Below, piece by piece: positions 1,681-35,636 of a stretch of DNA of 36,427 nucleotides. Source of the stretch: Paludibacteraceae bacterium (GTDB taxonomy: Bacteria; Bacteroidota; Bacteroidia; Bacteroidales; Paludibacteraceae); assembly GCA_017444615.1 (NCBI GenBank), contig JAFSWF010000039.1, positions 1 to 36,427 of the forward strand, in the 5' to 3' direction. The notes beneath the pieces were generated by a model. It did no database searches, was not told the origin of the DNA, and was given only the letters and a program-made list of their open reading frames with translations. A program made the position numbers and the translations under genes. The number at the start of each line of letters is the position of its first letter. Position 1 is the stretch's first letter.

Positions 1681-1702
1681 TGTACAAAAACCAAGATAAA
1701 CC

Positions 1703-3717: not shown

Positions 3718-5208
3718 ATGATATTAAGCGAGTTAATAGCGGCAATTGAGCCGATAGAGGTTGTCGGGCGGACGGATAAGGAGATTACGGGTCTGCATTT
3801 CGACAGTCGAAAAGTTGGTGCAGGCGATCTGTTCGTAGCCCAGGTAGGCACAGCAGTAGATGGTCACACGTTCATTGATGGTTGTGTCGCTAAGGGCGTG
3901 AGTGCGGTGGTGATGAGTAAACCCCTCCCTACCCCTCCCCTCAAGGGAGGGAACGCAGATGGAGTGACTTATATCCTTGTTAAGAACACGGATGAGGCGT
4001 TGGGTCGTTTGGCGTGCCGATGGTTTGGTGAACCGAGTAAACAGTTGACGTTAGTGGGTGTGACGGGAACGAACGGTAAGACGACGATTGCTACCTTATT
4101 ATATAAACTCGTGCGCGCGATGGGACATAAGGCAGGTTTGCTGAGTACCGTGGTCAATTATATTGAGGACGAAGCAGTGCCGGCGACCCATACCACGCCT
4201 GACGCGTTGGAGTTGAACGGTTTATTACGGCGGATGGTCGATGCGGGTTGCGAGTACGCGTTCATGGAAGTGAGCAGTCACGCGATCGCGCAAGAACGCA
4301 TTGCGGGTTTGGATTTTGACGGGGCGCTGTTCACTAACCTGACGCGCGATCATATCGACTACCATAAGACGTTTGACAACTACCGCGATACGAAGAAACG
4401 GCTCTTTGACGGGTTGAAGAAGAGTGCCTTCGCCGTAACTAACAAAGACGACAAGAACGGGTTGGTGATGACGCAAAACTGCAAGGCGGCGGTGCACACC
4501 TACTCCACCCGTTCGCTGGCGGATTACAAGGCGCTGATACTGGAAGAAGGTTTCGAGGGGATGATGCTCAATATGAACGGCAAGGAGGAGTTCGTGCCCT
4601 TATTGGGACTGTTCAACGTCAGCAATTTGCTGTGTATCTACGGCGCAGCGCTGTGTTTGGGATTTGAGGAGTTGGAGGTGCTGCGTGTGCTGAGTACGCT
4701 GAAGCCGGTGAATGGTCGGTTTGAGACCATCCATAGTCTGAAAGGTTGGACGGCGATAGTTGATTACGCCCACACCCCCGACGCCGTGGAGAATGTGATT
4801 AGTACGATACGAGAGATACTGGATGAAGGACGAAGGACGAAGGACGAAGGCCAAAGGAAACTGATTACCGTCATCGGTTGCGGAGGTAATAGAGATAAGG
4901 GCAAGCGTCCGATGATGGCGCAGATAGCCAAACGAGGCAGCGAACAGTTGATTCTGACGAGCGATAACCCGCGCGATGAAGAACCGGCGGCTATCTTAAA
5001 AGATATGACAGATGGGTTGACGGCGGAGGAGTTGCGTAGTACGTTGGTGATCGAAGATCGTGCGGCAGCTATCCAAACGGCATGTCTGCTGGCACAGAAA
5101 GGCGATGTCATTTTGGTGGCAGGCAAAGGTCACGAGGACTATCAGATCATCAAAGGGGTAAAACATCATTTTGATGACCATGAAATCGTTCGCAAGTTTG
5201 CGAACTGA
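3718..5208 (+). CDS. murE: UDP-MurNAc-L-Ala-D-Glu:meso-diaminopimelate ligase MurE
   Basis: MurE is a cytoplasmic ATP-dependent ligase that adds the third amino acid to the peptidoglycan precursor. The P-loop TGTNGKTT is at residues 116-123. The DNPR motif at 416-419 is the signature of enzymes that use meso-diaminopimelate rather than lysine, so the murein is inferred to be of the DAP type. GKGHEDYQ near the C-terminus is also typical. Two stretches look like in-frame insertions: PLPTPPLKGGNAD at about 69-81, encoded by a GC-rich hairpin, and GRRTKDEGQR at 371-380, encoded by 7-bp repeats. The stop codon TGA overlaps the start of another heptamer array (5207-5241). Confidence 0.97.
   Translation: MILSELIAAIEPIEVVGRTDKEITGLHFDSRKVGAGDLFVAQVGTAVDGHTFIDGCVAKGVSAVVMSKPLPTPPLKGGNADGVTYILVKNTDEALGRLACRWFGEPSKQLTLVGVTGTNGKTTIATLLYKLVRAMGHKAGLLSTVVNYIEDEAVPATHTTPDALELNGLLRRMVDAGCEYAFMEVSSHAIAQERIAGLDFDGALFTNLTRDHIDYHKTFDNYRDTKKRLFDGLKKSAFAVTNKDDKNGLVMTQNCKAAVHTYSTRSLADYKALILEEGFEGMMLNMNGKEEFVPLLGLFNVSNLLCIYGAALCLGFEELEVLRVLSTLKPVNGRFETIHSLKGWTAIVDYAHTPDAVENVISTIREILDEGRRTKDEGQRKLITVIGCGGNRDKGKRPMMAQIAKRGSEQLILTSDNPRDEEPAAILKDMTDGLTAEELRSTLVIEDRAAAIQTACLLAQKGDVILVAGKGHEDYQIIKGVKHHFDDHEIVRKFAN
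3921..3954 (+). repeat. GC-rich hairpin insert inside murE
   Basis: CCCTCCC (3933-3939) and GGGAGGG (3945-3951) form a perfect stem with a 5-nt loop, preceded by another C-rich copy. In frame it encodes PLPTPPLKGG, between the conserved N-terminal substrate-binding segment and the next beta-strand of MurE. Similar C-rich/G-rich palindromes occur at 14877-14896 and 35977-35993, outside genes. Confidence 0.75.
4824..4858 (+). repeat. CGAAGGA heptamer array inside murE
   Basis: Five 7-bp units (TGAAGGA, CGAAGGA, CGAAGGA, CGAAGGC, CAAAGGA) lie end to end and encode GRRTKDEGQRK just before a beta-strand (LITVIGCGG). A near-identical array is in murG (12098-12125). Confidence 0.9.
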
Positions 5209-5241
5209 TGTACGATGTACGATTTACGATGTACGATTGAT
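5207..5241 (+). repeat. GATGTAC heptamer array between murE and mraY
   Basis: Five 7-bp units: GATGTAC (5207-5213), GATGTAC, GATTTAC, GATGTAC and GATTGAT. The murE stop codon (5206-5208) overlaps the first unit. The family recurs inside korA (19018-19053) and korB (20177-20204). Confidence 0.9.
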
Positions 5242-5268
5242 TGATGATTGAAAATAATTTACGATTTT

Positions 5269-6540: not shown

Positions 6541-6667
6541 TTAACAATGAAGAATGAAGAAAGGGTTTGTAGAAGGTTTGGTACTAAATTACAAGATTAG
6601 CACAAACAAAACGTTTTTCAAAAGCTCTTAGAATTCTTTCATAATTCGTAATTCTTAATTCATAATT
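6539..6667 (+). mobile_element. Dispersed palindromic intergenic element, copy 1 (MITE-like)
   Basis: The left border has heptamers AATTAAC, AATGAAG, AATGAAG (6539-6559). The core begins AAAGGGTTTGTAGAAGG. The right border has heptamers CATAATT, CGTAATT, CTTAATT, CATAATT (6640-6667), which are inverted relative to the left ones. Core ends match copy 3 in the same orientation (AAAGGGCTTGTAGCAGG at one end, CTTAGAATTCTTT against CCTAGAACGCTTT at the other). The element fills the whole gap between mraY and murD and has no ORF. Confidence 0.7.
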
Positions 6668-6673
6668 CAAACT

Positions 6674-7966: not shown

Positions 7967-7971
7967 TTGAT

Positions 7972-8865: not shown

Positions 8866-8876
8866 AAAACAAGACT

Positions 8877-11583: not shown

Positions 11584-11584
11584 T

Positions 11585-12649
11585 ATGAGATACTTAATTT
11601 CCGGAGGGGGAACCGGCGGACATATCTTCCCCGCAGTCAGTATTGCCAACGCCTTGAAGGAGTTAGATCCGGAGGCAGAGATTTTGTTTGTAGGTGCGCT
11701 CGGTCGGATGGAGATGGAGCGCGTTCCGCAAGCAGGGTACAAGATCATCGGTCTGCCTGTTCGGGGCTTCAACCGCGCACAGCCGTGGAAGAACATCTCC
11801 GTTCTATGGGACCTTCTTCGTTCGCTTATCCAAGCCCGGCGTATCATCAAAGATTTCCGTCCGGACGTCGGTGTAGGAGTCGGTGGTTACGCCTCCGGTG
11901 CAGCCATGTGGGTGGCAGCGAAAATGGGGATTCCTATTTTGTTGCAAGAACAAAACGGCTTTGCCGGTGTTACCAATAAACTCCTCAAAGACAAAGCCGC
12001 GAAGATATGCGTGGCGTACCCAGGGATGGAGAAGTTCTTCCCAGCCGATAAGATCTTACTCACCGGCAATCCCGTGCGGCAGAACCTGTTGGAGGGGCGA
12101 AGGACGAAGGGCAAAGGGCAAAGGCATTTGCTCATCATCGGCGGTAGTCTCGGTGCACGCACTATCAACGAAGCCGTGTTGGCGGGACTGCCGCAACTCC
12201 AAGAAGCCGGTATTCAGGTCGTTTGGCAAACCGGCAAGTACTATTTCGAGAAATATCGAAATATCGATATGTCGAAATATCAAAATGTTGAAATCTACGA
12301 TTTCCTCTCGGACATGCCCGATCGGTATGCCACGGCTGACCTCGTTATCTCCCGTGCCGGCGCGTCGTCGATTAGTGAGATCTGTCTGCTCGGCAAGCCG
12401 GCTATTTTGGTGCCTTCACCCAATGTGGTGGAGGATCATCAGACCCATAACGCCATGGCGCTCGTCAACCGCGACGCCGCTATCTTGGTGCGCGATGCCG
12501 ATGCCGCCAGCCAACTCATTCCTACCGCCATCGCCACCCTCAACGACCCGGCATTGCTCGCCAAACTACATACCAACGTGCTCCAACTGGCTGAGCGTGA
12601 CTCCGCCAAACGCATTGCGCAAGAAGTCATCAAATTATGTCAAGCTTGA
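11585..12649 (+). CDS. murG: UDP-GlcNAc:lipid I N-acetylglucosaminyltransferase MurG
   Basis: MurG is a peripheral inner-membrane GT-B glycosyltransferase that converts lipid I to lipid II. The N-terminal glycine-rich loop GGGTGGHIFPA is at residues 7-17. GVGGYASGAAM, LLQEQNGFAGVTN and the C-terminal donor-binding region (IIGGSLGARTINE, SRAGASSISE) are all present. Two low-complexity stretches are repeat-encoded: GRRTKGKGQRH before the first beta-strand of the C-terminal domain, and EKYRNIDMSKYQNVEIY about 40 residues later. Neither touches the catalytic motifs. The next gene overlaps the 3' end by 13 bp. Confidence 0.97.
   Translation: MRYLISGGGTGGHIFPAVSIANALKELDPEAEILFVGALGRMEMERVPQAGYKIIGLPVRGFNRAQPWKNISVLWDLLRSLIQARRIIKDFRPDVGVGVGGYASGAAMWVAAKMGIPILLQEQNGFAGVTNKLLKDKAAKICVAYPGMEKFFPADKILLTGNPVRQNLLEGRRTKGKGQRHLLIIGGSLGARTINEAVLAGLPQLQEAGIQVVWQTGKYYFEKYRNIDMSKYQNVEIYDFLSDMPDRYATADLVISRAGASSISEICLLGKPAILVPSPNVVEDHQTHNAMALVNRDAAILVRDADAASQLIPTAIATLNDPALLAKLHTNVLQLAERDSAKRIAQEVIKLCQA
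12098..12125 (+). repeat. CGAAGGA heptamer array inside murG
   Basis: Four 7-bp units (CGAAGGA, CGAAGGG, CAAAGGG, CAAAGGC) encode RRTKGKGQR. They sit at the inter-domain linker just before the strand LLIIGGSLGA. Same family as the murE array at 4824-4858. Confidence 0.9.
12250..12297 (+). repeat. GAAATATC octamer array inside murG
   Basis: Six 8-bp units with the pattern GAAATATC, GAAATATC, GATATGTC, GAAATATC, AAAATGTT, GAAATCTA encode the stretch from EKYRNIDM to VEIY. Period is 8 rather than 7. Confidence 0.75.
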
Positions 12650-13779: not shown

Positions 13780-14803
13780 CGCGTCCGAGCGAACCTATAT
13801 AATCGCCTCCGGACGCGTTCGCGTGACCACCGCCACCGAACACCTCATGCGCCATAATATTGACCGGACGGTCGCCTTGCGAACGGAACGAAATCTTAAT
13901 CACCGGCAGTGACGTGCCGGGCTTAGGCGGTTGTTCGCGCATGAAAACCGAGTAATACACATCGCTGATCTGCAGCGGCATGTTCACTAATCCCTCCGTA
14001 TCTCCGGCTTTGTAGTTAAACCGCTGCAACTCCTCATCCGATAGCGCTATCAACGCCAAGTGATGCTCAGGGAAAAGCTGCAACTTGCGATGCAAAGCAT
14101 ATCCAATCAATCGCAACCTATCCGGCGAATACTGATTGAAAACGGCGTCGTAGATCTCGTCCTTGTTAATCCCTGCCCGCAGTAAGTCCGCTATCATCTC
14201 ATAGATATCGGGGTTATTACTGTTGAACGCAAAATTGCCCGTATCCGTCATCAATCCCGTGTACAGACAAATAGCAATCTGACGGCTGATAGCTGAAGAC
14301 TGACGGCTGACAGCGGCTATAAACCTATACACCAACTCACAGGTCGAGGTCGCATGCGGATAAGAGAAGGCGATGGTTGCAAAATCCGATGGGTTGAGGT
14401 GATGGTCAATCATAATCTTCGGGCAGTTATTGAGCATAATCCGCTCGCCTACGGGACCGATACGTTTCGGTTCATTAAAATCCAAACAGATATGCATATC
14501 CGCCTCAGCAATCACTTGGTCTGCTTCTTTTTCGTGCCCTTCGTACACCAGCACGTCCTTCGCCCCGGGCAACCATGCCAAGAACTCCGGACACGCATTA
14601 GGCGTTATCACCGTCACTTGCTGACTATTGAGGTCTGTACTCTGTATTCTGTACTCTGTATTCTCTAACCACCCCTTCATTGCCAGCGACGAACCCATCG
14701 CATCGCCGTCCGGCGCGATATGCGTGAAGATAACAATCCGCTTTGCCTGAGCAATCAGCCCCTTCGCCTCTTCTACCTTCGCCAAATCCAATATCTGTTC
14801 CAT
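13730..14803 (-). CDS. nrnA: DHH-family phosphoesterase, NrnA-like (oligoribonuclease / pAp phosphatase)
   Basis: A cytoplasmic Mn-dependent DHH/DHHA1 phosphoesterase that degrades nano-RNAs and, in many members, 3'-phosphoadenosine 5'-phosphate. Motifs are HIAPDGD (28-34), CLDFN, MIDHH (131-135), TGLMTDTG and the DHHA1 glycine cluster GGGGHANASGG (323-333). The reading frame is open to 14911, but the promoter at 14820-14850 lies inside that extension. The ATG at 14803 (MEQILDLAKV) is therefore the start, giving 357 aa and a very short leader. Two heptamer inserts are present: NTEYRIQSTD near residue 48 and SRQSSAISRQ near residue 166. The 3' end overlaps the convergent acyltransferase gene. 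The NrnA substrate assignment is by family only. Confidence 0.9.
   Translation of the reverse strand: MEQILDLAKVEEAKGLIAQAKRIVIFTHIAPDGDAMGSSLAMKGWLENTEYRIQSTDLNSQQVTVITPNACPEFLAWLPGAKDVLVYEGHEKEADQVIAEADMHICLDFNEPKRIGPVGERIMLNNCPKIMIDHHLNPSDFATIAFSYPHATSTCELVYRFIAAVSRQSSAISRQIAICLYTGLMTDTGNFAFNSNNPDIYEMIADLLRAGINKDEIYDAVFNQYSPDRLRLIGYALHRKLQLFPEHHLALIALSDEELQRFNYKAGDTEGLVNMPLQISDVYYSVFMREQPPKPGTSLPVIKISFRSQGDRPVNIMAHEVFGGGGHANASGGDYIGSLGRAIRTFLKHYPSYLRKD
14279..14313 (-). repeat. TTCAG-type heptamer array inside nrnA
   Basis: On the + strand the units read CTGACGG, CTGATAG, CTGAAGA, CTGACGG, CTGACAG. On the coding strand this is the CAG-NN-TCAG type, encoding SRQSSAISRQ. Same family as arrays in korB, MATE, prmA, folC and dnaE. 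Confidence 0.88.
14635..14662 (-). repeat. AATACAG heptamer array inside nrnA
   Basis: Four 7-bp units on the + strand (CTGTACT, CTGTATT, CTGTACT, CTGTATT) encode NTEYRIQSTD on the minus strand. A second copy of the family is in folC (30868-30895). Confidence 0.9.
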
Positions 14804-14819
14804 AGTTCCAAAATTTGTG

Positions 14820-14850
14820 CAAAGGTACAAAAAAAAACGCATATATGCAA
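14820..14850 (-). promoter_or_regulatory. Promoter of nrnA
   Basis: On the minus strand a TACCTTTG box (complement of 14820-14827) is preceded, exactly 20 nt away, by TTG (complement of 14848-14850). This matches the Bacteroidetes TTTG-N19/21-TAnnTTTG promoter. The -33 region contains TTGCATATATG. The box lies about 17 bases before the ATG at 14803. Confidence 0.8.
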
Positions 14851-14860
14851 GACTTTGGGC

Positions 14861-14899
14861 AAAAAAAATAAACACACCCCTCCTTTTGAGGAGAGGCGT
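14861..14899 (-). terminator. Intrinsic terminator of the lipoprotein/OMP operon
   Basis: Read on the minus strand, a GC-rich stem (CTCTCCT and AGGAGGGG, around 14877-14896, small loop, one bulge) is followed by a T-rich run complementary to 14861-14872. It lies about 28 nt after the outer-membrane-protein stop codon and just before the nrnA promoter, as expected for a terminator separating two units. Confidence 0.72.
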
Positions 14900-14924
14900 G
14901 CATAAATACATTCCTTAGAGAACG

Positions 14925-15902: not shown

Positions 15903-15922
15903 ACGATCTATTGCTTTTGAGG

Positions 15923-17371: not shown

Positions 17372-17380
17372 TTGCTTATT
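17239..17380 (+). repeat. Nested hairpins upstream of korA
   Basis: GTACCTTCGG (17239-17248) pairs with CCGAAGGTAC (17286-17295), enclosing CCCTAAAC/GTTTAGGG (17259-17276). Next come GCACG-AA-CGTGC (17300-17311) and TCAAGT-AA-ACTTGA (17341-17354). AGTAAGCAAG near 17313 is mirrored by CTTGCTTATT (17371-17380). These lie just upstream of, and partly overlap, the korA promoter. They could be operators or remains of a palindromic element. Confidence 0.65.
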
Positions 17381-17402: not shown

Positions 17403-17443
17403 CAGTCGCAAAGGTTGACAAATAAAAAAAAGCAATAAATAAA

Positions 17444-20363: not shown

Positions 20364-20370
20364 AATTTTT

Positions 20371-22035: not shown

Positions 22036-22044
22036 ATAATTAAA

Positions 22045-22188
22045 AATTAAGAATGAAGAATGAAGAAGGCGTTCTAGGGAGTTTGGTACTACGTTTGATG
22101 TCTGTACGGACTCTAATAGTTTGTACTAAACTCTATCAATGAGCACCAAACCTGCTACAAGCCCTTTCTTAATTCTTAATTCATAATT
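22045..22188 (-). mobile_element. Dispersed palindromic intergenic element, copy 2 (inverted relative to copies 1 and 3)
   Basis: The left border has heptamers AATTAAG, AATGAAG, AATGAAG (22045-22065). The right border has CTTAATT, CTTAATT, CATAATT (22168-22188). The core begins GCGTTCTAGGGAGTTTGGTAC and ends CCTGCTACAAGCCCTTT. It aligns to the reverse complement of copy 3 with roughly 85-90 % identity by eye and one gap of about 32 nt. It lies between the AspT-like and MATE genes, ending directly before the MATE TTG start codon. Confidence 0.78.
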
Positions 22189-22190
22189 CG

Positions 22191-23519
22191 TTGAATACCA
22201 TTAATCGAAATATTCTTCGCCTGGCGATACCCAGTATTCTGGCGAACATCACCATTCCTTTGGTGGGCATAGTGGATACGGCCATTATCGGTCATATCAG
22301 CGACGCCGCAGCCATAGGCGGTATCGCTATCGGTACGATGCTCTTTGATTTGCTGTATTGGAACTTCGGCTTCTTACGCATCGGTACCAGCGGTTTGACG
22401 GCGCAGGCATACGGCGCAGGTCGTATGGATGAATGTCGGGCACTGCTGCAACAAGGCATCCGCATATCCCTCATCGCCGCCGTAGGTATATGGTTGATAC
22501 AATGGTTCTTCGTCACCGCCATCCTTTGGTGCGTACCTTGTTCGCCGCAAGCTGCCGCCGTGGCACGGGAATATTTCTTCATTCGTATATGGGCAGCGCC
22601 CGCCACCCTCATCCTCTTTACGATGAAGGGTTGGTTTATCGGCATGCAAGATACCCGTCGTCCGATGGTAGTGGATATAACGGTCAACGGGGTGAATATG
22701 ATTGCCAGTTATCTGCTGGCCGTCAACGCCGGTCTCGGCGTGGCCGGCGTAGCCTATGGCACCCTCATCGCCCAATACACCGGTCTCGTGCTGGCAGCCA
22801 TCCTCTTTTATACAAGGTACTCAGCATTCAGTTTTCAGAAGTCAGCTTTCAGTTTTCAGAAGTCAGCATTCAGCATTCAGCTTTCAGATTACTTCCGTTT
22901 CAATGCGAACCTGGTGGTGCGGTCGTTGTGCTTCATGATCATTTATGTGGGGTACACGTGGTTGGCTAGTCGGTACGGCGATACCGAATTGGCGGTGAGC
23001 AGTATTTTGATGAAGTTGTTTATGTTCTTCTCTTTCTTCGTGGATGGTTTTGCGTACGCCGGCGAAGCGCTGGTAGGTAAGGCGTTTGGAGAAGCCAAAG
23101 CAGCCGTCAGCATTCAGCATTCAGCATTCAGCGACATCGTCCGCTTGCTCTTCAACTGGGCAGTGGGTGTAGGATTGCTCTTCACAGCCGTCTATGCCCT
23201 GTGGGGGAAGGCTTGTATCGGCTTATTAACCGATGACCGGTCGGTTTTGGACGCTGCGGGGCACTATATAGGTTGGCTCATTGCGATGCCGATTGTCAGC
23301 ACATTAGCGTTCATGTGGGACGGCGTCTATACCGGTGCGACGGCAGGCAAGTATATTCGCAATGCAATGATCTGGGCAGCAGCGGCTTTTGCGGTGCTCT
23401 ATGTGTTAAGTTTCCGCTTCGTTGGTGCGCAGGCATTATATATCGCTTATTTTGCACACCTCTTCGCCCGCGTGGTCTATTTAAGTGTTAATTGGAAGAA
23501 AATCAATATAGCGCAATGA
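22191..23519 (+). CDS. MATE-family efflux transporter (DinF type)
   Basis: A 442-aa multidrug/toxin exporter with 12 predicted membrane segments, coupled to a cation gradient. The N-terminal IPSILANITIPLVGIVDTAIIGHIS is the classical MATE/DinF signature. Start is TTG at 22191, since there is no ATG in frame upstream of this segment. It comes right after a palindromic element. Two repeat-derived stretches occur: SAFSFQKSAFSFQKSAFSIQ (about residues 211-230) in the cytoplasmic linker between the two six-helix lobes, and AVSIQHSAFS (about 306-315) in a loop of the second lobe. Both avoid membrane segments. The stop codon overlaps the next ATG. Confidence 0.92.
   Translation: MNTINRNILRLAIPSILANITIPLVGIVDTAIIGHISDAAAIGGIAIGTMLFDLLYWNFGFLRIGTSGLTAQAYGAGRMDECRALLQQGIRISLIAAVGIWLIQWFFVTAILWCVPCSPQAAAVAREYFFIRIWAAPATLILFTMKGWFIGMQDTRRPMVVDITVNGVNMIASYLLAVNAGLGVAGVAYGTLIAQYTGLVLAAILFYTRYSAFSFQKSAFSFQKSAFSIQLSDYFRFNANLVVRSLCFMIIYVGYTWLASRYGDTELAVSSILMKLFMFFSFFVDGFAYAGEALVGKAFGEAKAAVSIQHSAFSDIVRLLFNWAVGVGLLFTAVYALWGKACIGLLTDDRSVLDAAGHYIGWLIAMPIVSTLAFMWDGVYTGATAGKYIRNAMIWAAAAFAVLYVLSFRFVGAQALYIAYFAHLFARVVYLSVNWKKINIAQ
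22817..22886 (+). repeat. TTCAG heptamer array in MATE gene (10 units)
   Basis: Ten units, each ending in TCA: GTACTCA, GCATTCA, GTTTTCA, GAAGTCA, GCTTTCA, GTTTTCA, GAAGTCA, GCATTCA, GCATTCA, GCTTTCA. A 21-bp higher-order repeat (three heptamers) is visible and encodes SAFSFQK twice. It is the longest array in the window. Confidence 0.95.
23103..23130 (+). repeat. GCATTCA heptamer array in MATE gene
   Basis: GCCGTCA followed by three exact GCATTCA units. It encodes AVSIQHSAFS in a loop of the second lobe. Confidence 0.93.
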
Positions 23520-23950
23520 AAAAGATATTCATTAATCATTATTCATTATTCATTATTCTGGCGGTACTGCTGAGCAGTTGTCAAGACCAGGTACAACAAG
23601 TAACCGGTACATATTCGTATAAGATTAGCGGCAGCGCGGAGGTAAGCACCGACTCGGTGGTGCTATCGAATGAGCAAGGGGCTATGGACCTTATTCGCAT
23701 CGATACGACCGCTGCCTTGCTGACTTTCAATGAGTTACGCGGGGCAACGTATGTAGCGAATGCCACTATCCATGGCAAGACGATTGAACTATCGCCCTAC
23801 AAACGCAATCTCACGATTGGTTCCCGAACGTACCCCATCACTGCCTCCGGTACAGGCACTATTTATGAGAACACGCTGGTACTGACCTTATCCTACAAAG
23901 GTGAGGATGTGTCAGCAGACGAAATCTTATTGGTATGCAAAAAGAACTAA
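23516..23950 (+). CDS. Small lipoprotein of unknown function
   Basis: A 144-aa protein with lipobox LLSSC and then a beta-rich body (GTYSYKISGSAEVS to LVLTLSYKGEDVSADEILLVCKKN). That body is reminiscent of small lipocalin-like or calycin-like Bacteroidetes lipoproteins, but no family is recognised. The frame is open from 23492, but the ATG at 23516 overlaps the MATE stop (ATGA) and gives a normal signal peptide MKKIFINHYSLFIILAVLLSSC. The hydrophobic core of that signal peptide (NHYSLFII) is encoded by a CATTATT heptamer array. The gene overlaps the following adaptor gene by 16 bp. Confidence 0.75.
   Translation: MKKIFINHYSLFIILAVLLSSCQDQVQQVTGTYSYKISGSAEVSTDSVVLSNEQGAMDLIRIDTTAALLTFNELRGATYVANATIHGKTIELSPYKRNLTIGSRTYPITASGTGTIYENTLVLTLSYKGEDVSADEILLVCKKN
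23530..23557 (+). repeat. CATTATT heptamer array encoding a signal peptide core
   Basis: CATTAAT followed by three exact CATTATT units. In frame they encode NHYSLFIIL, the hydrophobic core of the lipoprotein signal peptide. Confidence 0.92.
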
Positions 23951-24984
23951 GTTTACTGTTCTGTTGTTGGCTGATGGTAGTACTCCACTCGTGCTCGTCG
24001 CCTACTAAGCAGCGCAAAGCAGAAGTGACGCCTCTCTCCGTTAAGACGATGGTTATCGGGGCGCAGGAAGACGCGGTGGCGTACACGCGGTATGTAGGAA
24101 CCGTAGAAGCCATCCAAGAGACGCCACTGAGCCTGCAAAGCGCCGGTCGTGTGACGGAAGTGATGGTACAAGAAGGGAGTGCCGTCAGCCGTGGACAAGT
24201 GATCCTGCGTATCGATAACACGCAGGCAGTCAATGCCTTGCGTTCCACCGAAGCCACACTTCATCAAGCCAAAGATGGGTACAACCGTGCCCAACAAGTG
24301 TACGCCAAAGGGGCCATCACCGACCAACAAATGGTGGAGATAACCAGTAAGCGCACGCAGGCGCAAGCCCTGTATGACGCCGCCAAACGACAAGTGGAGG
24401 AATGTGAACTCAAAGCGCCATGCGATGGTGTAGTGAGCGGTTTAGATACCCGCATCGGTCAGACTATTGTGCCAGGCGTGCCCCTTTTACAACTACTGGA
24501 CCTCAGTGCCTACGCTGTGCGGTTCACCGTACCGGAAAACGAGATAGGTGGTTTAACCATCGGACAGAAAGGACTGGTGGAATGCACAACGATGGATACC
24601 GTTCTGGCATGCGCCATCACCGATAAGGGCCTCCAAGCCAACCCTCTCGCGCATACCTACGACGTGAAAGCGCGTATCCAAGGCGGACAGCCGATCCTGC
24701 GACCGGGGATGGTATGCAAAGTACGGATGACCAACGAGGCCCTGACTGGACCAATGACCAATGACCAATCAGCTATCATCATTCCGGCTAAGTGCATACT
24801 GCTCAAACCTGAAGGTCCGACCGTGTGGCTCAAGGTGAATGGCGTAGCCGTCAGGCGGTCCGTGACCATAGGTGGCTACCAAGCAGAAGGAGTACTGATC
24901 ACCGCAGGCCTGCAAGCAGGCGACACGCTGATTACAGAAGGATATCAGAAACTTTACATGGGATGTAAAGTAATTGATAATTGA
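23935..24984 (+). CDS. RND efflux periplasmic adaptor (membrane fusion protein)
   Basis: A 349-aa adaptor that links an RND pump to an outer-membrane channel. Lipobox LHSC (cysteine at 20) anchors it to a membrane. YVGTVEAIQETPLSLQSAGRVTEVMVQEG and GVVSGLDTRIGQTIVPGVPLLQLLDLS are the two halves of the lipoyl/biotinyl-like domain. The alpha-hairpin lies between them (AVNALRSTEATLHQAKDGYNRA). The start overlaps the small lipoprotein by 16 bp. A GACCAAT array inserts GPMTNDQSA near residue 273. The last residues, VIDN, and the TGA stop come from an AATTGAT array, so the final C-terminal residues are repeat-derived. Confidence 0.92.
   Translation: MQKELSLLFCCWLMVVLHSCSSPTKQRKAEVTPLSVKTMVIGAQEDAVAYTRYVGTVEAIQETPLSLQSAGRVTEVMVQEGSAVSRGQVILRIDNTQAVNALRSTEATLHQAKDGYNRAQQVYAKGAITDQQMVEITSKRTQAQALYDAAKRQVEECELKAPCDGVVSGLDTRIGQTIVPGVPLLQLLDLSAYAVRFTVPENEIGGLTIGQKGLVECTTMDTVLACAITDKGLQANPLAHTYDVKARIQGGQPILRPGMVCKVRMTNEALTGPMTNDQSAIIIPAKCILLKPEGPTVWLKVNGVAVRRSVTIGGYQAEGVLITAGLQAGDTLITEGYQKLYMGCKVIDN
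24749..24769 (+). repeat. GACCAAT heptamer array in efflux adaptor gene
   Basis: Three exact GACCAAT units encode GPMTNDQS before the strand AIIIPAKCILL. Related to the CAATCAC arrays of korA and the folC-prmA junction. Confidence 0.88.
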
Positions 24985-24999
24985 TAATTGATAATTGAA
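24972..24999 (+). repeat. AATTGAT heptamer array at adaptor/pump gene junction
   Basis: AATTGAT three times, then AATTGAA. The TGA stop of the adaptor gene (24982-24984) and the probable TTG start of the pump gene (24995-24997) are both inside the array. Confidence 0.93.
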
Positions 25000-28066: not shown

Positions 28067-29421
28067 AGAAACGTCTCTATATAGTAGCATTTAACTGTTG
28101 GCTGTTGGCTGTTGGCTCTTTATCGGCTAATAGCACCCTAACCTTGGACTCTTGTCTCACGCTCGCCAAACAGAATAACCCTTCGTTGCGCAAGGCGCAG
28201 TTGGAGGTGCTGCGGGCGCAAGAGGTGAAAGCGCAGGCATTGACCAAATACTTCCCGCAGATACAAGGAATGGCATTCGGTTATCATGCCTTGCATCCGC
28301 TGGTAGATGTAGGCATCGACGATATCGGTAATGCGGCCGTGCGCGACCTGCTCACCACCCTCTACGGCAATTACGGGGCAGCGTTAGGGTTGGAGAATAG
28401 TTTCAATCTCTTCCAATACGGTTACACCGCCGGCGTGTCGGCTATCCAACCGGTGTTCATGGGCGGTAAGATTGTGGCAGGTAATCAGTTGGCGAAAGTA
28501 GGTGTAGAAGCCGCGCAACTACAAGCTCAGATCAGTGCGCGCGATATGCTCGAACAAGTGGAACAAACTTACTGGTTCGTCTATGGTCTGCAGCAGAAAC
28601 AAACGCTCATTGACGAAGCCTTAGGACTCTTAGACACCCTTTCGACCATCGTCTCTGCCGCAGCGTCCGCAGGCTTAGCCTTACCCGCTGACACCATGCA
28701 AGTGGCACTCAAGCGCGACGAAGTGCTCCGCTCACAAATCCAACTAACCACCGGTCTGGCTTTAGCCCGTCAAGCCTTAGCGCTTTCCGTCGGATTACCC
28801 ATGACCGATACCATCTTCGTGCGCGAGGATGGCTTAAACGACGCGGATGAGAAGGTCTCGCCGAACGGCACCGGTACACCCGAAGCGGCGTTATTAGCGT
28901 TGCAAGTACGCGCTGCTGAACTGCAACGCCGCATGACCCTCGCTGACGCGCTGCCACAGGTAGCAGTGGGTGCCGGGTATGGCTATAGTCATCTGCAGAC
29001 GAATGTGCTCAAGAATGGACTCAACAGTAATGCGAAAGGCAATGGTGCCGTCTTCGTTACCATGCGCGTACCGCTGACGGCGTGGTGGGAGACTGCCCAT
29101 AAACTGAAAGAACAACAGTATGCCATCGAGCAGGCACAACTGGATGCCAATTATCTCGGTGCCCAACTGGATCTGCGCACCCAACAAGCGGCAGATCAGT
29201 TATTGGCAGCAGAGGCACTGGTGCAACTACAGCAGAAAGCCGTCACCCATGCCGAAGAAGCCTACCGGCAGATTCAAGTACAATACGAAGCGGGACGAGC
29301 CACTATCCATGACCTGCTCCAGCAACAAACCGCCTGCACCCAAGCACGCAATGACCTCACCGATGCCGAGATTGCCTATCGCATCGCGTGGCGGCGGTAC
29401 CAAGACCTAATAAATAATTAA
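28063..29421 (+). CDS. TolC-like outer-membrane efflux channel
   Basis: A 452-aa outer-membrane factor that completes the efflux system; start and pump stop overlap (ATGA). The N-terminal signal peptide MKKRLYIVAFNCWLLAVGSLSAN is partly encoded by a CTGTTGG array. The mature protein has the duplicated OEP layout: LTLDSCLTLAKQNNPSLRKAQLEVL in the first half, and AAELQRRMTLADALPQVAVGAGY in the second. Long helical, glutamine- and alanine-rich segments continue to the end. The C-terminus LINN and stop lie in AT-rich repeats that open element copy 3. Confidence 0.92.
   Translation: MKKRLYIVAFNCWLLAVGSLSANSTLTLDSCLTLAKQNNPSLRKAQLEVLRAQEVKAQALTKYFPQIQGMAFGYHALHPLVDVGIDDIGNAAVRDLLTTLYGNYGAALGLENSFNLFQYGYTAGVSAIQPVFMGGKIVAGNQLAKVGVEAAQLQAQISARDMLEQVEQTYWFVYGLQQKQTLIDEALGLLDTLSTIVSAAASAGLALPADTMQVALKRDEVLRSQIQLTTGLALARQALALSVGLPMTDTIFVREDGLNDADEKVSPNGTGTPEAALLALQVRAAELQRRMTLADALPQVAVGAGYGYSHLQTNVLKNGLNSNAKGNGAVFVTMRVPLTAWWETAHKLKEQQYAIEQAQLDANYLGAQLDLRTQQAADQLLAAEALVQLQQKAVTHAEEAYRQIQVQYEAGRATIHDLLQQQTACTQARNDLTDAEIAYRIAWRRYQDLINN
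28095..28115 (+). repeat. CTGTTGG heptamer array encoding tolC signal peptide
   Basis: Three exact CTGTTGG units in register encode CWLLAVG, the hydrophobic core of the signal peptide. Confidence 0.92.
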
Positions 29422-29598
29422 CAATGTACAATTAACAAAGGGCTTGTAGCAGGTTTTGTACTCATTTGTAAAGGGTATGGTACTCGTCTGTAGGGTTTGG
29501 TAGAGTTTGGTACAAACCAGTAGAATCCGTACAGACTTCAAACGTTGCACAAAACTCCCTAGAACGCTTTGTTAATTGTTAATTATTAATTGTTAATT
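29416..29598 (+). mobile_element. Dispersed palindromic intergenic element, copy 3 (longest)
   Basis: The left border has heptamers AATTAAC, AATGTAC, AATTAAC (29416-29436). The core begins AAAGGGCTTGTAGCAGG. The core ends CCTAGAACGCTTT, followed by heptamers GTTAATT, GTTAATT, ATTAATT, GTTAATT (29571-29598). Core ends are imperfect inverted repeats of each other (AAAGGGCTTGTAGCAGGTTT against AAAGCGTTCTAGGGAGTTTT). The interior has about 21-bp direct repeats starting GTACTC. It occupies the gap between the convergent tolC and prmA genes and supplies both stop codons. Confidence 0.8.
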
Positions 29599-30389
29599 GT
29601 TTTCCCAAACATCAACATCCGCCATTCGTTTTTGGCGTGTGTAGCCAAATGACGCAAACCGTTCGCTGCAGCGGCTTCAATTAAAACGGGGCAGTCTTCT
29701 TCATAAAAACCACTCATCCATAACTCTCCGCCGGTTGTCAGACTGGCCGCGTACGAAGGCATATACTCCAACAGAATATTGCGGTGAATGTTGGCAAGGA
29801 TTAAACTGAAAGCTGACGGCTGACGGCTGAATGCTGACGCATGTAGCACCTCTATCTCTTCGCCGTTCAGGGCTGCGTTCTCTTTGGCATTCGCCACACT
29901 CTTCTCATCAATATCTACCGCCACCACATGTTCGGCTCCTAAGCGTTTGGCAAAGATGGCGAGTACACCCGTACCCGTACCGTGATCTAAAACCTTTCTG
30001 AATACTGAATGCTGACGGCTGACGGCTGATTGCTGCAAGTAATCGATCATCATTGAAGTGGTCTCATGATAACCGGCACCGAAGGCGCAATGGGGAATGA
30101 TACGTATGCCTAACGGTAACTCTTGCACGGGGTGCTCGGATTCCCAAACGGCATTCCAGTTCTCGTCGGGACACTCTTCTACGCCTTCCCAATGAACCGA
30201 TCCGTCATCTTCGTGCATGACACAAAAATACATGATCCGTTGACTATTAATCGCCCAGACCTCCGAAGGGATATAATAGTTCTCTCCATCAATGGTGTCC
30301 ACGCCGTAATTGCACAGCGTTTGGTCAAACACATCTTTCTGCCACTCCTCCTTAAAAGAAGTCTTAATATGAATCACATGATATCGCAT
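29586..30389 (-). CDS. prmA: Ribosomal protein L11 methyltransferase PrmA
   Basis: PrmA uses S-adenosylmethionine to trimethylate ribosomal protein L11 in the cytoplasm. GAGYHETTSMMIDYL, the SAM motif I VLDHGTGTGVLAIFAKRLGA and ILANIHRNIL (motif IV) identify it; 267 aa is near the family length. Two TTCAG-type arrays are embedded: SAVSRQHSVFRK just before motif I, and SAFSRQPSAFSL just before motif IV. The C-terminal TINN and stop are encoded by a GTTAATT array that is the border of element copy 3. It starts 14 nt after the folC stop and is the last gene of the dnaE-folC-prmA operon. Confidence 0.93.
   Translation of the reverse strand: MRYHVIHIKTSFKEEWQKDVFDQTLCNYGVDTIDGENYYIPSEVWAINSQRIMYFCVMHEDDGSVHWEGVEECPDENWNAVWESEHPVQELPLGIRIIPHCAFGAGYHETTSMMIDYLQQSAVSRQHSVFRKVLDHGTGTGVLAIFAKRLGAEHVVAVDIDEKSVANAKENAALNGEEIEVLHASAFSRQPSAFSLILANIHRNILLEYMPSYAASLTTGGELWMSGFYEEDCPVLIEAAAANGLRHLATHAKNEWRMLMFGKTINN
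29806..29840 (-). repeat. TTCAG heptamer array in prmA (before motif IV)
   Basis: On the + strand: CTGAAAG, CTGACGG, CTGACGG, CTGAATG, CTGACGC. On the coding strand it encodes SAFSRQPSAFS directly before LILANIHRN. Confidence 0.92.
29998..30039 (-). repeat. TTCAG heptamer array in prmA (before motif I)
   Basis: Six 7-bp units on the + strand: CTGAATA, CTGAATG, CTGACGG, CTGACGG, CTGATTG, CTGCAAG. They encode QQSAVSRQHSVFR directly before the SAM-binding strand. Confidence 0.93.
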
Positions 30390-30391
30390 TT

Positions 30392-30419
30392 ACCAATCAC
30401 CAATTACCAATCACCAATC
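30392..30419 (-). repeat. ACCAATC heptamer array at folC/prmA junction
   Basis: ACCAATC, ACCAATT, ACCAATC, ACCAATC on the + strand. Read on the minus strand (GATTGGT) it contains stop triplets. It encodes the folC C-terminus VIGDW, provides the TAA (30404-30406) and runs up to the prmA ATG. Confidence 0.92.
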
Positions 30420-31708
30420 ACCAGTGCCTCGCCCACGAGGTAATTACTGCCTCCAATGAAGATGGCGTCATCTTCTTGTGCCTGCGCCTCAGCGTATTTT
30501 ATCGCTTCTTGCGGGTTCTCTATGGCCAAGGGCTGAATACTGAATGCTGAAGGCTGAATACTCTCCCAAAGGGAGCGCATCTCTTCTGCCGTACGCGCGC
30601 GCTGCGTGTTCGGACGCGTAAATATATAATGATACCGTTCTCCAGTAGGCATCAGCCGCAGCACTTCTTCGGAGTCCTTATCGTTCACCATCCCAAAGAC
30701 GATCCAAACATGTGGGTTCTTCAATCCGCGTAATTGTTCCGCTACATACCATAGTCCGTGACTGTTGTGCCCTGTATCGCATATCGTTAGTGGTCGCTCG
30801 CAAAGCGTCTCCCATCGTCCCCGCAAACCGGTCAACGAGCACACATGTGAAAATCCCTCACGAATATCTGTATTCTGTACTCTGTATTCTGTATTCCCTA
30901 ACGCGCGTAATGCTACATATGCCGTTTGCAGGTTCTTCTCCTGATAAATCCCTTTCAACTCACATTCGGGCGCTTCGCGCAGGCGCACCTTCCGCAAGTA
31001 CCCACATTGGTCCGCGAACCAAATCCGGCAATCGGTAGTCTCCAATCCATCCCCTAAGATACCGCACTCGTTAGCTTTTTCCAAAAAAACCGGCGCGGTC
31101 TCTTCATCCGTCTCGCCTATGACGCAAGGCACGTTCGGTTTGATGATACCGGCTTTCTCGCGGGCTATCTCAGGGAGTGTCGTGCCCAAGTACTCCGTAT
31201 GGTCAAAGCCGATATTAGTAATGACGCTCAACACGGGTGTCAGCACATTCGTACTGTCTAATCGTCCGCCGAGCCCTACTTCCACTACCGCTATATCCAC
31301 CTTCTCCCGCACGAACTGATCGAACGCCATCATCGTCATCGTTTCAAAGAACGAAGGTTGCACTTCATCTAAGAACGCTCTATGACGGGTGATAAACGCC
31401 GCCACTTGGTCTTCGGGGATAGGAGTGCCGTTGATGCGAATGCGTTCGGTCAGCGACACTAAATGCGGACTGGTGTACAGCCCCACTTTGTATCCCGCCG
31501 CTTGCAAGACCGCTGCAATGAGATGACTTGTCGAACCCTTACCATTCGTACCTGCCACATGGATAGCCTTCAGTCGTTCATGCGGGTTACCCACCTCCGC
31601 CATCAACCGTAAGGTCTGTTCCAACCCCGGCTTATACGCCGCTCCGCCTACCAAGTGAAACGGTGGCCGCGACGAATACAAATATGTAACTGCTTCAGAA
31701 TAAGTCAT
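30404..31708 (-). CDS. folC: Folylpolyglutamate synthase / dihydrofolate synthase FolC
   Basis: A cytoplasmic Mur-ligase-superfamily enzyme that adds L-glutamate to dihydropteroate and/or folates. The P-loop GTNGKGS is at 53-59, with YTSPHLVSLTERIRING and the NIGFDHTEYLG segment after it; 434 aa is normal. Two arrays lie inside: NTEYRVQNTD near residue 272 and SIQPSAFSIQ near residue 384. The C-terminus and stop (VIGDW) come from a third array. It starts 31 nt after the dnaE stop and precedes prmA by 14 nt. Confidence 0.95.
   Translation of the reverse strand: MTYSEAVTYLYSSRPPFHLVGGAAYKPGLEQTLRLMAEVGNPHERLKAIHVAGTNGKGSTSHLIAAVLQAAGYKVGLYTSPHLVSLTERIRINGTPIPEDQVAAFITRHRAFLDEVQPSFFETMTMMAFDQFVREKVDIAVVEVGLGGRLDSTNVLTPVLSVITNIGFDHTEYLGTTLPEIAREKAGIIKPNVPCVIGETDEETAPVFLEKANECGILGDGLETTDCRIWFADQCGYLRKVRLREAPECELKGIYQEKNLQTAYVALRALGNTEYRVQNTDIREGFSHVCSLTGLRGRWETLCERPLTICDTGHNSHGLWYVAEQLRGLKNPHVWIVFGMVNDKDSEEVLRLMPTGERYHYIFTRPNTQRARTAEEMRSLWESIQPSAFSIQPLAIENPQEAIKYAEAQAQEDDAIFIGGSNYLVGEALVIGDW
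30533..30560 (-). repeat. TTCAG heptamer array in folC
   Basis: CTGAATA, CTGAATG, CTGAAGG, CTGAATA on the + strand. On the coding strand it encodes SIQPSAFSIQP before the strand LAIENPQE. Confidence 0.92.
30868..30895 (-). repeat. AATACAG heptamer array in folC
   Basis: CTGTATT, CTGTACT, CTGTATT, CTGTATT on the + strand; coding-strand peptide NTEYRVQNTD. Same family as nrnA 14635-14662. Confidence 0.92.
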
Positions 31709-31713
31709 GACGG

Positions 31714-31745
31714 GATTACGGAATTACGGAATTACGGGATTACGA
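31714..31745 (-). repeat. GATTACGG octamer array between dnaE and folC
   Basis: Four 8-bp units: GATTACGG, AATTACGG, AATTACGG, GATTACGA. The dnaE stop codon (complement of 31740-31742) is inside the array and the rest fills most of the 31-nt gap to the folC start. Confidence 0.88.
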
Positions 31746-34700: not shown

Positions 34701-35636
34701 CGCCATCTCCTCAGGCGTCTTCAACCATTCCTGCTTGGTGTAGTGCATACGGTTGACATCGTTCACGTAATGGTTGGTGCTCAAGCATATCAAGCGGTCA
34801 TGCGCCTCCGCGTCCTCTTCATTCACGAAATGCGAATCGTTCGTACAAATCACTTTCACTCCGTATTTGCGAGCCAACGCCATAAGCACAGGGTTGACTT
34901 GTTTCTGCCGCTCATACACCTCTACATCCGCACCGGGTTTTTGCGTCTCATGCCGCTGCAACTCAATGTAATAATCTTCGCCGAAGAGGTTCTTAAACCA
35001 TTGTATTGTCTCCTCCGCCTCTTTAAACACACCCTGCTCAATCAACGTCTGAATGCTGACGTCTGACGTCTGTTCGCCAACGCCAACGCCAACGCCAGTG
35101 CCGATGCCACTTAATACTTTCTGCGGCAATTCGCCTCCCAGACAGGCAGAGGAACAGATGATACCTTCGTGGAACCGTTCCAGCAGTTCGCGGTCGATAC
35201 GAGGCGTGTAGTAGTACGCATCAGACATATAACCTAAGGACACAATGCGGCAGAGGTTATGGTAGCCAACCATGTTCTTCGCCAGCAGAATCAAGTGCCA
35301 CCCCGACCGGTCGATGTAATACGTGCGCCCTTCCGGACTAACGGCTTTGTCATCCAGATGCGACAACCGTCCCCTCCGCGCGCAGTACGCCTCACAACCC
35401 ACAATAGGCTTGAAGGGAACAAACTCTTCTCCCTTCTCTTCGGCTGCCGCTTTGCGCTTTTTATTCACCCCCTTGCAATAATCCAGCAGGTCTTTGATGC
35501 CGTACATATTACCATGATCGGTCAGCGCCACGGCGTTCATGCCCGTCGCGATACATTTGTCCACTATCTCCTCCACCTTACTCAACCCGTCCAGTAGCGA
35601 GTAATGCGAGTGCACATGTAAATGCGTAAATTCCAT
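31740..35636 (-). CDS. dnaE: DNA polymerase III alpha subunit DnaE
   Basis: The replicative polymerase catalytic subunit, 1298 aa. An N-terminal PHP domain begins HLHVHSHYSLLDGLSKVEE. The catalytic aspartates are in PDIDTDF at 472-478 (D473 and D475 match E. coli D401/D403). The tandem HhH region (FGLGGIKGVGEGAAEAII) and an OB fold (PCLLGGIIIEAEQKISQKGNPY) follow. The ATG at 35636 is fixed by a consensus promoter about 20 nt upstream and by a rare good Shine-Dalgarno (GGAGG, 5 nt before the ATG). A composite array inserts GIGTGVGVGVGEQTSDVSIQ near residues 177-196 in the PHP region. It heads the dnaE-folC-prmA operon. Confidence 0.98.
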   Translation of the reverse strand: MEFTHLHVHSHYSLLDGLSKVEEIVDKCIATGMNAVALTDHGNMYGIKDLLDYCKGVNKKRKAAAEEKGEEFVPFKPIVGCEAYCARRGRLSHLDDKAVSPEGRTYYIDRSGWHLILLAKNMVGYHNLCRIVSLGYMSDAYYYTPRIDRELLERFHEGIICSSACLGGELPQKVLSGIGTGVGVGVGEQTSDVSIQTLIEQGVFKEAEETIQWFKNLFGEDYYIELQRHETQKPGADVEVYERQKQVNPVLMALARKYGVKVICTNDSHFVNEEDAEAHDRLICLSTNHYVNDVNRMHYTKQEWLKTPEEMAEIFADIPEALANTQEIVNKVEIYDIDHEPIMPKFDIPASFGREEDYPDRLAFESAYLRHLTMEGALKRYGKERLENDEVLKERIEFELNTIISMGFPGYFLIVMDFIRAAREELDVSVGPGRGSAAGSVVAYCLRITDLDPLEYDLLFERFLNPDRISLPDIDTDFEDCGRGKVLDYVSRKYGETHVAHIVTYGKMATKSALADVGRVQQVPLAFVNELKGLIPDRDFPDSVLKGLPEGAKKPKVNLKNCYKYIDELKREYETGDPNTRSMLEYAARLEGTIRQVGVHACGVIIGADDLTNFAPLSSVEDKASKKRVLVTEYDGHVVESVGLIKMDFLGLITLTIIKECLRNIKKARGIDIDIDHIPIDDELTYKLFQEGRTVAVFQFESAGMQKYLRELKPTVIGDLIAMNALYRPGPMDYIPQFIKRKQGIEPVTYEIPVMEKYLKDTYGVTVYQEQVMLLSRLLANFTRGESDKLRKAMGKKQIAVLASLKDKFMTGGKANGHDPKILDDIWTKWEKFASYAFNKSHAACYSWVAYQTGYLKAHYPAEFMAANLTVHKDDIKEVTKLMDECRALHINVLEPDVNESELNFTVNSKGHIRFGLGGIKGVGEGAAEAIIAEREKGGKYQNIFDFLERVNLQSCNKKTMECLAQAGAFECFEDIYREQFFGVNEDGLTGLELLMNYGNKWQADQANNTNSLFADLDFAVEIKHPDLPQVPRWNAIERLNREKDLIGIYLSAHPLDEYAYEVKELCNITAQELMRFDGWRKADARAAAEAQLRTEVNEEGQRPELPSEFIAVHKNQPCLLGGIIIEAEQKISQKGNPYGRYTIEDYTGGYSFFLFGQAYQQFAHMMLKDLHVLVQGVIQQKNAGQRWFKEAPEEEAEYEFMVQSVQMLNEVQDKRTEGIAIRLSLPALTNELMDELAEQIKQSKGSSTLHISIYNPINRQQVAFTSRTPIHVTPALYRWLCDKRMDGVLDFKVEERS
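35049..35106 (-). repeat. Composite heptamer and hexamer array in dnaE
   Basis: On the + strand four heptamers (CTGAATG, CTGACGT, CTGACGT, CTGTTCG; 35049-35076) pass directly into hexamers (CCAACG three times, CCAGTG, CCGATG; 35077-35106). Coding-strand peptide: GTGVGVGVG followed by EQTSDVSIQ. This is the only place where two different periods abut inside a gene. Confidence 0.9.

Follow-up and report, generated by a model that had tools for sequence, protein, structure and literature searches.

Dispersed heptanucleotide arrays in housekeeping genes and at gene junctions of a Paludibacteraceae bacterium and its relatives

Contig JAFSWF010000039.1 of a Paludibacteraceae bacterium (GenBank assembly GCA_017444615.1; 36,427 nucleotides, analysed over its whole length and referred to below as the window) carries numerous short tandem arrays with a unit of seven bases, many of which lie in frame inside housekeeping genes such as murE, korA, folC and dnaE. 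These heptad arrays probably represent a dispersed class of small repeats rather than a collection of independent microsatellites. They exceed chance expectation genome-wide, their words recur, some of them form dispersed compounds with one sharp end, and those inside genes reuse the same slots, avoid stop codons and are located in loops. On balance, we favour a scenario in which the arrays were copied between sites, subsequently changed by slippage and filtered by selection.

Excess of heptad arrays and dispersal of their words

The window is contig C18 of the source draft genome, denoted G000 (1.6 Mb in 72 contigs, 76% complete). The host belongs to the Bacteroidales, and its nearest records are rumen and gut assemblies of Bacteroidales/Paludibacteraceae. 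Hereafter, G-numbers designate genomes (41 in total, including 16 from other families) and L-numbers designate fetched loci or stretches; each species is represented by a single genome throughout, so that all comparisons are between species. Tandem Repeats Finder returned 28 period-7 rows with scores of at least 30 across the 36.4-kb window, and we counted 22 perfect period-7 runs of at least 16 bp, whereas 60 order-2 Markov simulations gave 0.13 on average and never more than 1. All other periods between 3 and 13 yielded 0–3 runs each, whereas the 16 runs of period 14 and the 10 runs of period 21 are harmonics of 7; periods 22 and 24 gave four and three runs, respectively. Positions relative to genes, which were named after their Pfam families, could be assigned to 27 of the 28 rows: 17 arrays lie inside frames (in murE, murG, korA, a small ORF (open reading frame), the HlyD adaptor, tolC and dnaE, and twice each in nrnA, korB, MATE, prmA and folC), four are intergenic, and the others extend across the ends of ftsL, murE, hlyD/acrB, tolC, prmA and folC. 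Eight words recur within the window, namely, TAATTGA, GATGTAC, AATGAAG, TTCWTAA, TCTGTAY, CAATCAC, TCAGCAT and GCTGACG.

The excess extends to the rest of the genome. A 347,548-bp sample of G000, consisting of the window and 20 other stretches, contains 87 arrays, or 2.5 per 10 kb compared with 0.023 in Markov controls; 21 merged arrays fall in the window (5.8 per 10 kb) and 66 in the remaining 311 kb (2.1 per 10 kb), so that the density in the window is ~2.7 times that of the other stretches. The arrays have a median length of 32 bp and a maximum of 180 bp, with 3 of 123 Tandem Repeats Finder rows exceeding 70 bp; being short, dispersed, built of degenerate heptad units and more numerous than expected by chance, they are heptanucleotide repeats. 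When ORFs are taken as the longest open frames rather than as gene calls, 47 of the 87 arrays lie wholly within ORFs, 21 cross an ORF edge and 19 are intergenic. ORFs make up 90% of the sample, and the 40 arrays wholly or partly outside them are found in ~10% of the sequence, which corresponds to a per-base density about sevenfold higher outside ORFs than inside; the arrays inside ORFs, though sparser per base, far exceed chance.

Related genomes contain arrays at densities of 0.7–1.75 per 10 kb in seven close species, 0.2 and 0 in two remoter members of the genus, and 0.4, 0 and 0 in three other families. In a survey of 80 named loci around murE, the closest clade (22 loci) has 1.43 period-7 runs per 10 kb. 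The densities in two additional groups, of 17 and 12 loci, are 0.66 and 1.05, and that of the 29 loci outside the genus is 0.42, with 6 of the 24 runs in this last group contributed by L166 alone. Judged from small samples of G001 (12 kb; 1.7 runs per 10 kb) and G017 (20 kb; 1.0) and from G005 (none), the density in the wider genus is uneven. Draft assemblies of several series (RUG, UBA, RGIG and others) display the same kind of arrays. The first-pass annotation had reported more than twenty arrays in the window, belonging to at least seven recurring families and often located in named housekeeping frames, and had envisaged an enrichment throughout the genome and in related Bacteroidales; all of these points are borne out.

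Identical words recur at unrelated sites far more often than local composition would predict. In G000, 102 pairs of arrays share a word, a 27-fold excess over the 3.8 pairs expected from heptamers drawn at random from the local sequence (no more than 12 in any of 200 draws), and 67 such pairs are counted without the window. The corresponding numbers are 9 compared with 0.24 in G002, 5 compared with 0.12 in G003 and 2 compared with 0.11 in G006, with no pairs in G004. Across eight species, there are 123 within-species same-word pairs, a number that was reached in none of 2000 permutations (mean 65), and exact words are shared at 2.7–3.8% within genomes but at about 1% between them. Local spreading was considered and rejected, as sharing is independent of distance (4.6% at 5–70 kb and 4.7% across contigs), save that pairs less than 2 kb apart share words slightly more often (6 of 69). 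Among pure arrays, moreover, the start phase is common to 36 and the end phase to 38 of the 102 same-word pairs, where 14.6 (one in seven) would be expected.

The dispersal is most directly traced by compound words. One of these, AAATGGTAAATGACC (7+8 bp), is represented in G000 by 21 exact copies spread over 19 places; there are 20 copies in G009, 14 in G018, 11 in both G015 and G008, and 1–4 in five more genomes, with none in the other 15 genus members and none in the 16 genomes of other families; the reversed word, used as a control, occurs 0 times in G000 and once across all 41 genomes. Another, AAATCGTCAAATCGTAAA, has 19 copies in G002 as opposed to 2 in its relative G004, 5 in G021, 4 in G018, 2 each in G007 and G011, and 1 each in G000, G022 and G023, again with none in the 16 genomes of other families. 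The copies are found on both strands and in unrelated flanks, and share a sharp right end: in G000, the motif is followed by AAATGGTAAAT in 16 of 19 copies, after which column identity drops from 0.89 to 0.53 and the downstream flanks are 26% identical on average, and in G002 the copies terminate in ...CGTAAAT, with identity falling from 0.95 to 0.42 within one column. The left end, by contrast, is gradual. The copy alignments include 14 of ~15 places in G009 and 6 of ~12 in G018.

Positions were classified for loci with the exact motif only (19 of the 20 fetched for G000). The copies end 3–7 nucleotides before a frame-opening ATG in 8 of 19 cases in G002 and 6 of 19 in G000, and lie inside ORFs in 7 of 19 and 6 of 19, respectively, although some of the latter labels are doubtful (L382 is a gene junction); further copies occupy other gene junctions. 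As read from the alignments, the unit that precedes ORF-internal copies in G009 and G000 is mostly of the 8-bp form, and the resulting 15-bp repeat amounts to five stop-free codons (N-D-Q-M-V). A similar reading of L382 in G002 against an empty site in G022 reveals ~50 extra bases, with the stop and start codons overlapping in G022. Neither terminal inverted repeats nor target duplications were seen by eye in the aligned compound copies or at the L382/G022 empty site. A 26-mer of the G000 word has no exact match in viral contigs; one of the G002 word matches two. Directly after two of the compound copies in G002, at L392 and L394, there are tRNA-like 5' parts, perhaps broken or chimeric pieces; ARAGORN called no tRNA at either locus. 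Dispersed compound families with a sharp end are not explained by independent local slippage, and they lend support to the proposal of the first-pass annotation that copying and/or slippage carries families of arrays from one site to unrelated ones; the excess of same-word pairs agrees with it as well.

Persistent slots and changing words within genes

Arrays of different species tend to occupy the same slots, while the words that fill these slots differ. In a test of eight species, restricted to arrays with alignable flanks and counting as an orthologous run any segment with at least eight period-7 matches, the orthologous segment also has period 7 in 41 of 194 comparisons, compared with 4 of 551 random positions; counted by site, an array is present in another species at 28 of 78 comparable sites, compared with 3 of 208 random sites. 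When both species have a run (n=47), the units are at least three bases apart in 26 pairs, a difference found in 84% of random array pairs. Similarly, 50 perfect runs in six genes (korA, korB, folC, prmA, MATE and murE) fall into 18 slots, 13 of which are occupied in at least two species, with words at least two bases apart in 11 of the 13. The gene alignments are limited to the closer species (16–20 of ~30 loci fetched per gene, 18 of 30 for dnaE, and nine species for the murE slots) and cover about two-thirds of the coding arrays of the window; the two nrnA arrays and those of the small ORF, the adaptor, tolC and folC 383–392 stand outside this site-by-site comparison.

Particular slots illustrate the pattern (coordinates are those of the window, on the forward strand unless stated). 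At residues 306–314 of the MATE protein (TCAGCAT array, 23107..23132), perfect arrays are found in six species, with TCAGCAT in G000, AAAAATT in G015, AATGGAC in G051, GGTGAGC in G048, GGATTAG in G003 and AAAGTCG in G022; G046 has an imperfect AAAGGTG array, G018 a palindromic insert and G004 a short loop. Nine of 17 close species have a short loop of the GxPNEAHG type following residue 235 of korA, where G000 has a CAATCAC array (18149..18180; residues 236–246). G053 likewise has heptads in this loop, G021 and G022 have palindromes, and G043, G048, G050 and G052 have either other repeats or longer segments. The pattern is alike in murE 62–92, in prmA and in folC 271–281 (TCTGTAT array, 30867..30896, reverse strand), the last with perfect arrays in six species. 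At the dnaE site (ACGTCTG/CTGACGT array, 35045..35072, reverse strand; residues 189–198), heptads are confined to G000, the other species having palindromes, another repeat or a short loop, and at korB 240–251 (TCAGNNT array, 20038..20072) the segment has been substituted without a change in length. The GGACGAA array of murE (4821..4858; residues 368–381) is absent or replaced by another repeat in relatives, and the copy number of arrays in murE differs between G002 and G004. G015 and G046, the most closely related of the pairs compared (87% nucleotide identity across aligned codons), share an identical imperfect array in folC but have different words in the MATE slot, which, together with the slot statistics, indicates that some arrays are inherited and others rewritten.

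The sites concerned are loops. Thirty-nine of the 50 perfect runs touch gapped alignment columns, and the array columns have a mean identity of 0.19–0.38, compared with 0.54–0.88 for whole proteins; frames are open throughout in the orthologue alignments. In a test on 101 Tandem Repeats Finder arrays of G000, the main unit of coding arrays is stop-free in all frames in 45 of 51 cases on the coding strand and in 21 of 51 on the other, 73% of random coding heptamers being stop-free. Coding arrays are thus tolerated inserts in variable loops, filtered by selection, rather than conserved residues. In accord with the first-pass annotation, relatives lack shared array residues at the compared sites. 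Its view that housekeeping proteins rarely tolerate such arrays needs to be qualified: the proteins do tolerate them, because the sites are loops that vary in length and sequence.

The other in-frame arrays of the window are GGGCAAA in murG (12095..12124; residues 171–180), CTGACGG and TCTGTAC/TCTGTAT in nrnA (14279..14311, residues 201–211, and 14634..14664, residues 83–93, both on the reverse strand), ACGATGT in korB (20191..20207; residues 291–296), TCAGCAT/TCAGTTT/TCAGAAG with 9.6 units in the MATE gene (22821..22887; residues 211–233), TATTCAT (23526..23558) inside the small ORF at 23492–23950, GACCAAT in the HlyD-type adaptor gene (24749..24769; residues 272–279) and CTGTTGG near the start of tolC (28095..28117), as well as, on the reverse strand, two GCTGACG arrays in prmA (29812..29839, residues 184–193, and 30011..30029, residues 121–127) and CTGAATA in folC (30533..30562; residues 383–392). 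Gene ends are spanned by GATAATT with 6.1 units (1640..1682; ftsL), TAATTGA (24971..24998; the adaptor stop and the acrB start), AATTAAC (29416..29438; tolC) and, on the reverse strand, TTGTTAA (29569..29601; prmA) and ACCAATC (30392..30423; folC), whereas GATGTAC lies at the murE–mraY junction (5207..5237), where other species have other words. The intergenic arrays are AATGAAG after mraY (6546..6561), TTCATAA before murD (6638..6669), AATGAAG after an antiporter-like gene (22045..22067) and TTCTTAA before the MATE gene (22166..22189).

Copying, slippage and alternative explanations

Under the scenario that we favour, short arrays and compound 7+8 bp words would be copied from one genomic place to another, possibly by template switching or by repair-type copying or conversion between arrays. 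Once established, the arrays would lengthen, shorten and homogenise through slippage in 7-base steps, to which changes in copy number may be attributed. Most survivors would be expected between genes, across stop codons and just upstream of starts, and those inside genes would be in frame, free of stops on the coding strand and placed within an already variable loop. Orthologous sites would often carry different words because the same tolerant slots are refilled.

Several observations weigh against this scenario. Most arrays are pure heptads, for which the case for copying is statistical only, and words within one base of each other are shared at 9–12% within genomes and 6–7% between them, a modest contrast. 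The same-word and same-phase pairs are not independent of each other, and neither are the slot comparisons, which were run in both directions. The units are equal or one base apart in 15 of the 47 pairs in which both species have a run, compared with 3% of random pairs, implying that many arrays are inherited or drift in place, and at murE slots 136 and 453 the words of the two species are identical or almost so. As to the compound words, the motif search fixes the motif itself, and end sharpness is measured only outside it; a clean empty site is available for one copy only (L382/G022), and no donor-to-recipient transfer event was caught among the compared genomes.

The simplest competing account is independent slippage at each site, with heptads as the preferred slip length of the polymerase and shared words resulting from composition, stop avoidance or bias. 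Such slippage would be consistent with the dominance of period 7, the different copy numbers in murE of G002 and G004, and the presence of TCAGCAT in unrelated GC-rich phages. A common bias indeed exists: TCA/TGA is found in 54 of 87 units in G000 (20 expected) and 37 of 82 in relatives (18 expected), and AAT/ATT in 52 and 54 units of the same sets (19 and 15 expected); we would guess that the TCA/TGA excess originates from the birth of arrays over stop codons. Nevertheless, compound words of 15–18 bp that retain the order of their parts at 19 places in each of two species, their fixed ends, the shared start and end phases, and the different spectra of exact words in species with comparable GC content are at odds with site-by-site slippage, which we consider unlikely. 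A true mobile element made of heptads and served by its own enzyme would account for one sharp and one ragged end, for the presence of copies on both strands and for the species-specific expansion of AAATCGTCAAATCGTAAA. Such an element is nonetheless improbable given the lack of inverted termini and target duplications by eye, the gradual left end, and the absence of PF00078 and PF01797 matches in G000, G004 and G006, other transposase families lying beyond the search.

The copies that end shortly before frame-opening ATGs might instead suggest functional sites under selection, for example, for the binding of translation or RNA regulators near starts, as put forward for the TAACTGA repeats of Beggiatoaceae. 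However, ORF-internal copies have the same end and species differ in the word at the same slot, making a functional role highly unlikely as the origin of the arrays. An artefact of assembly or binning comes to mind since the compared genomes are drafts, mostly metagenomic, but it is barely credible for short arrays (median 32 bp) in open frames on which several assembly series agree.

Candidate agents were sought among enzymes, and none emerged. Reverse transcriptase (PF00078) is present in 12 of 41 genomes, within the genus only in G002, G008, G012, G015 and G018, with no match in G000, G003, G004, G006, G021 and G022; as array-bearing members of the genus are split by this family, it does not track the arrays. 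The Y1 transposase of repetitive extragenic palindromic (REP) type (PF01797) has no match in G000, G002, G004 and G006, and weak ones in G003, G018 and G022. Loss of mismatch repair is not the cause, because MutL is encoded in 37 of 41 genomes (no match in G012, G016, G021 and G035); loops of seven bases escape mismatch repair. SbcD_C was found in only 4 of 41 genomes and is missing from array-poor ones as well, so that loss of SbcCD does not discriminate. Enzyme absences are weak evidence, given that the drafts are incomplete (76% for G000). Secondary structure was likewise rejected: when four repeats, one of them in both orientations, were folded as single-stranded DNA, the best energy was −2.7 kcal/mol, with z no lower than −1.5, which is not clearly better than shuffles.

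Heptads are also found in phages. A 26-mer of TCAGCAT units retrieves nine stretches of GC-rich (59–70%) viral contigs from IMG/VR (L417–L425), with 2.7–14 period-7 runs per 10 kb, partly in ORFs, a density biased upward as the stretches were chosen for having an array. Pfam recognizes phage proteins (Mu-like portal and protease, terminases) on L418, L419, L420 and L424; 5 of the 10 phage-contig proteins scanned have no Pfam match (one on L420 and those on L417, L425, L416 and L415). One 40-kb viral contig has ten matches across four stretches, and three of its sites share the compound [GCTGAAT]n-CAGAAATC-[CCTGACC]n but differ in n, a case of copying and copy-number change in an unrelated genome. 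Besides the fetched word, 23 of 37 phage arrays contain TCA/TGA (18% expected). The dense heptads, TCAGCAT included, in GC-rich phage contigs imply that the phenomenon is wider than this lineage. More speculatively, it is conceivable, though doubtful, that a hitherto undescribed, transposase-independent copying process spreads arrays throughout a genome as selfish units, each with a single fixed end, and time and again replaces the sequence of tolerant loops in housekeeping proteins with words particular to each species, and that it may act in phages of unrelated bacteria.

Other repeats in the region and known repeat systems

Loops that hold heptads in some species contain, in others, a C/G-rich palindromic insert of the CCCTCCC..AAGGGAGGG type, also in frame; such inserts were found in the korA, dnaE, folC, MATE or murE loops of G018, G021, G022, G047, G050 and G052. 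The first-pass annotation had placed its first heptad array at 3921, where the murE frame in fact contains the palindromic C/G-rich insert ACCCCTCCCCTCAAGGGAGGG (3920..3952, forward strand), located in the same kind of slot and with partial matches at six other places in G000. Next to the dnaE heptads, the segment at 35075–35097 is a repeat not of seven but of six bases (CGCCAA), translated as a run of Gly and Val. Yet another repeat, centred on AGACCGCTTCGCTC / ACAGCGGAGCGGTCT and likewise in frame, occurs in the dnaE loop of G002, G022 and G048, the korA loop of G048 and G050, and the murE loop of G004.

Period-11 direct repeats, mainly intergenic, are located at positions 1–36 of the window and at L117 (6750–6794), L119 (6790–6818), L131 (11459–11545) and L148 (5741–5778). 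Some of those close to the beginning of the cell-wall cluster resemble one another across several species, and window 1–36 and L117 share AATAACCTACT. Their density is 0.68–1.28 per 10 kb in the genus compared with 0.07 outside. They may be operator arrays, perhaps of the MraZ type; being mainly intergenic and separate, they were set aside from the heptads. Between murD and ftsW, the window contains an oxidoreductase-like gene and a gene for a 496-residue protein without a Pfam match (7963–10367), and murG is followed by an acyltransferase gene (12637–13779); none of the three has a match at an E-value of 1e-20 in stretches from 13 relatives.

The short tandemly repeated repetitive (STRR) sequences of filamentous cyanobacteria, whose units are degenerate and present in high copy number, resemble the heptad arrays in that seven-base degenerate units form short dispersed arrays. 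They have been described as short arrays of 7-base units with no known function in the account consulted (PMC2670836). Here, however, the host is a member of the Bacteroidales, arrays wholly within ORFs form the largest class (47 of 87, albeit denser outside per base) and include those of housekeeping genes, whereas the first-pass annotation took STRR sequences to be largely intergenic; words that vary between relatives at one slot and compounds with a fixed end further set the present arrays apart by description. In most genomes surveyed, heptanucleotides outnumber all other long simple repeats, and polymerase slippage was proposed as their cause (Mrazek 2007, as retold in PMC4679880), and the GGGNATC repeats of Xanthomonas and Nostoc are reported as one word type, over-represented in non-coding DNA, with about a third within genes in Nostoc (PMC4692102). 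The dominance of period 7 and the presence of some arrays within genes are common to these repeats and ours; unlike GGGNATC, many words coexist here and recur at unrelated sites. The TAACTGA direct repeats of marine Beggiatoaceae are dispersed, often just upstream of starts, and are also reported from five Bacteroidetes, including a Paludibacter, with horizontal spread suspected and no mechanism given in that report (PMC4679880). They consist of one fixed word and are mainly intergenic, in contrast to the many words, in frame within genes, described here.

In-frame insertion into unrelated genes, as met here, is known for Rickettsia palindromic elements (RPE) (Ogata 2000, as retold in PMC10969869). 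These elements are ~150 bp long and palindromic with a conserved peptide, whereas the present arrays are direct repeats with a median of 32 bp and without strong folding. Miniature inverted-repeat transposable elements, and REP sequences with their associated tyrosine transposases, are likewise small dispersed repeats; the former differ from the heptad arrays, in which no inverted termini or target duplications were seen by eye, and the latter in that the PF01797 Y1 transposase is unmatched in four of the genomes (see above). In the open-access literature, searched by title and the start of the abstract, with most subscription papers outside its scope, there was no report of such arrays in this lineage or of differing heptad words at one orthologous slot.

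Although bacterial heptad repeats have been on record for decades, there is no consensus on the mechanism behind them. Dense arrays in combination with many related genomes allow copying to be separated from slippage, with compound words with fixed ends serving as tracers. The arrays continually supply housekeeping proteins with new peptide segments in frame, so that proteins of gut bacteria change by a route similar to that of RPE, and the copying agent, if found, could explain a long-standing class of repeats shared by cyanobacteria, Xanthomonas, Beggiatoaceae and others.

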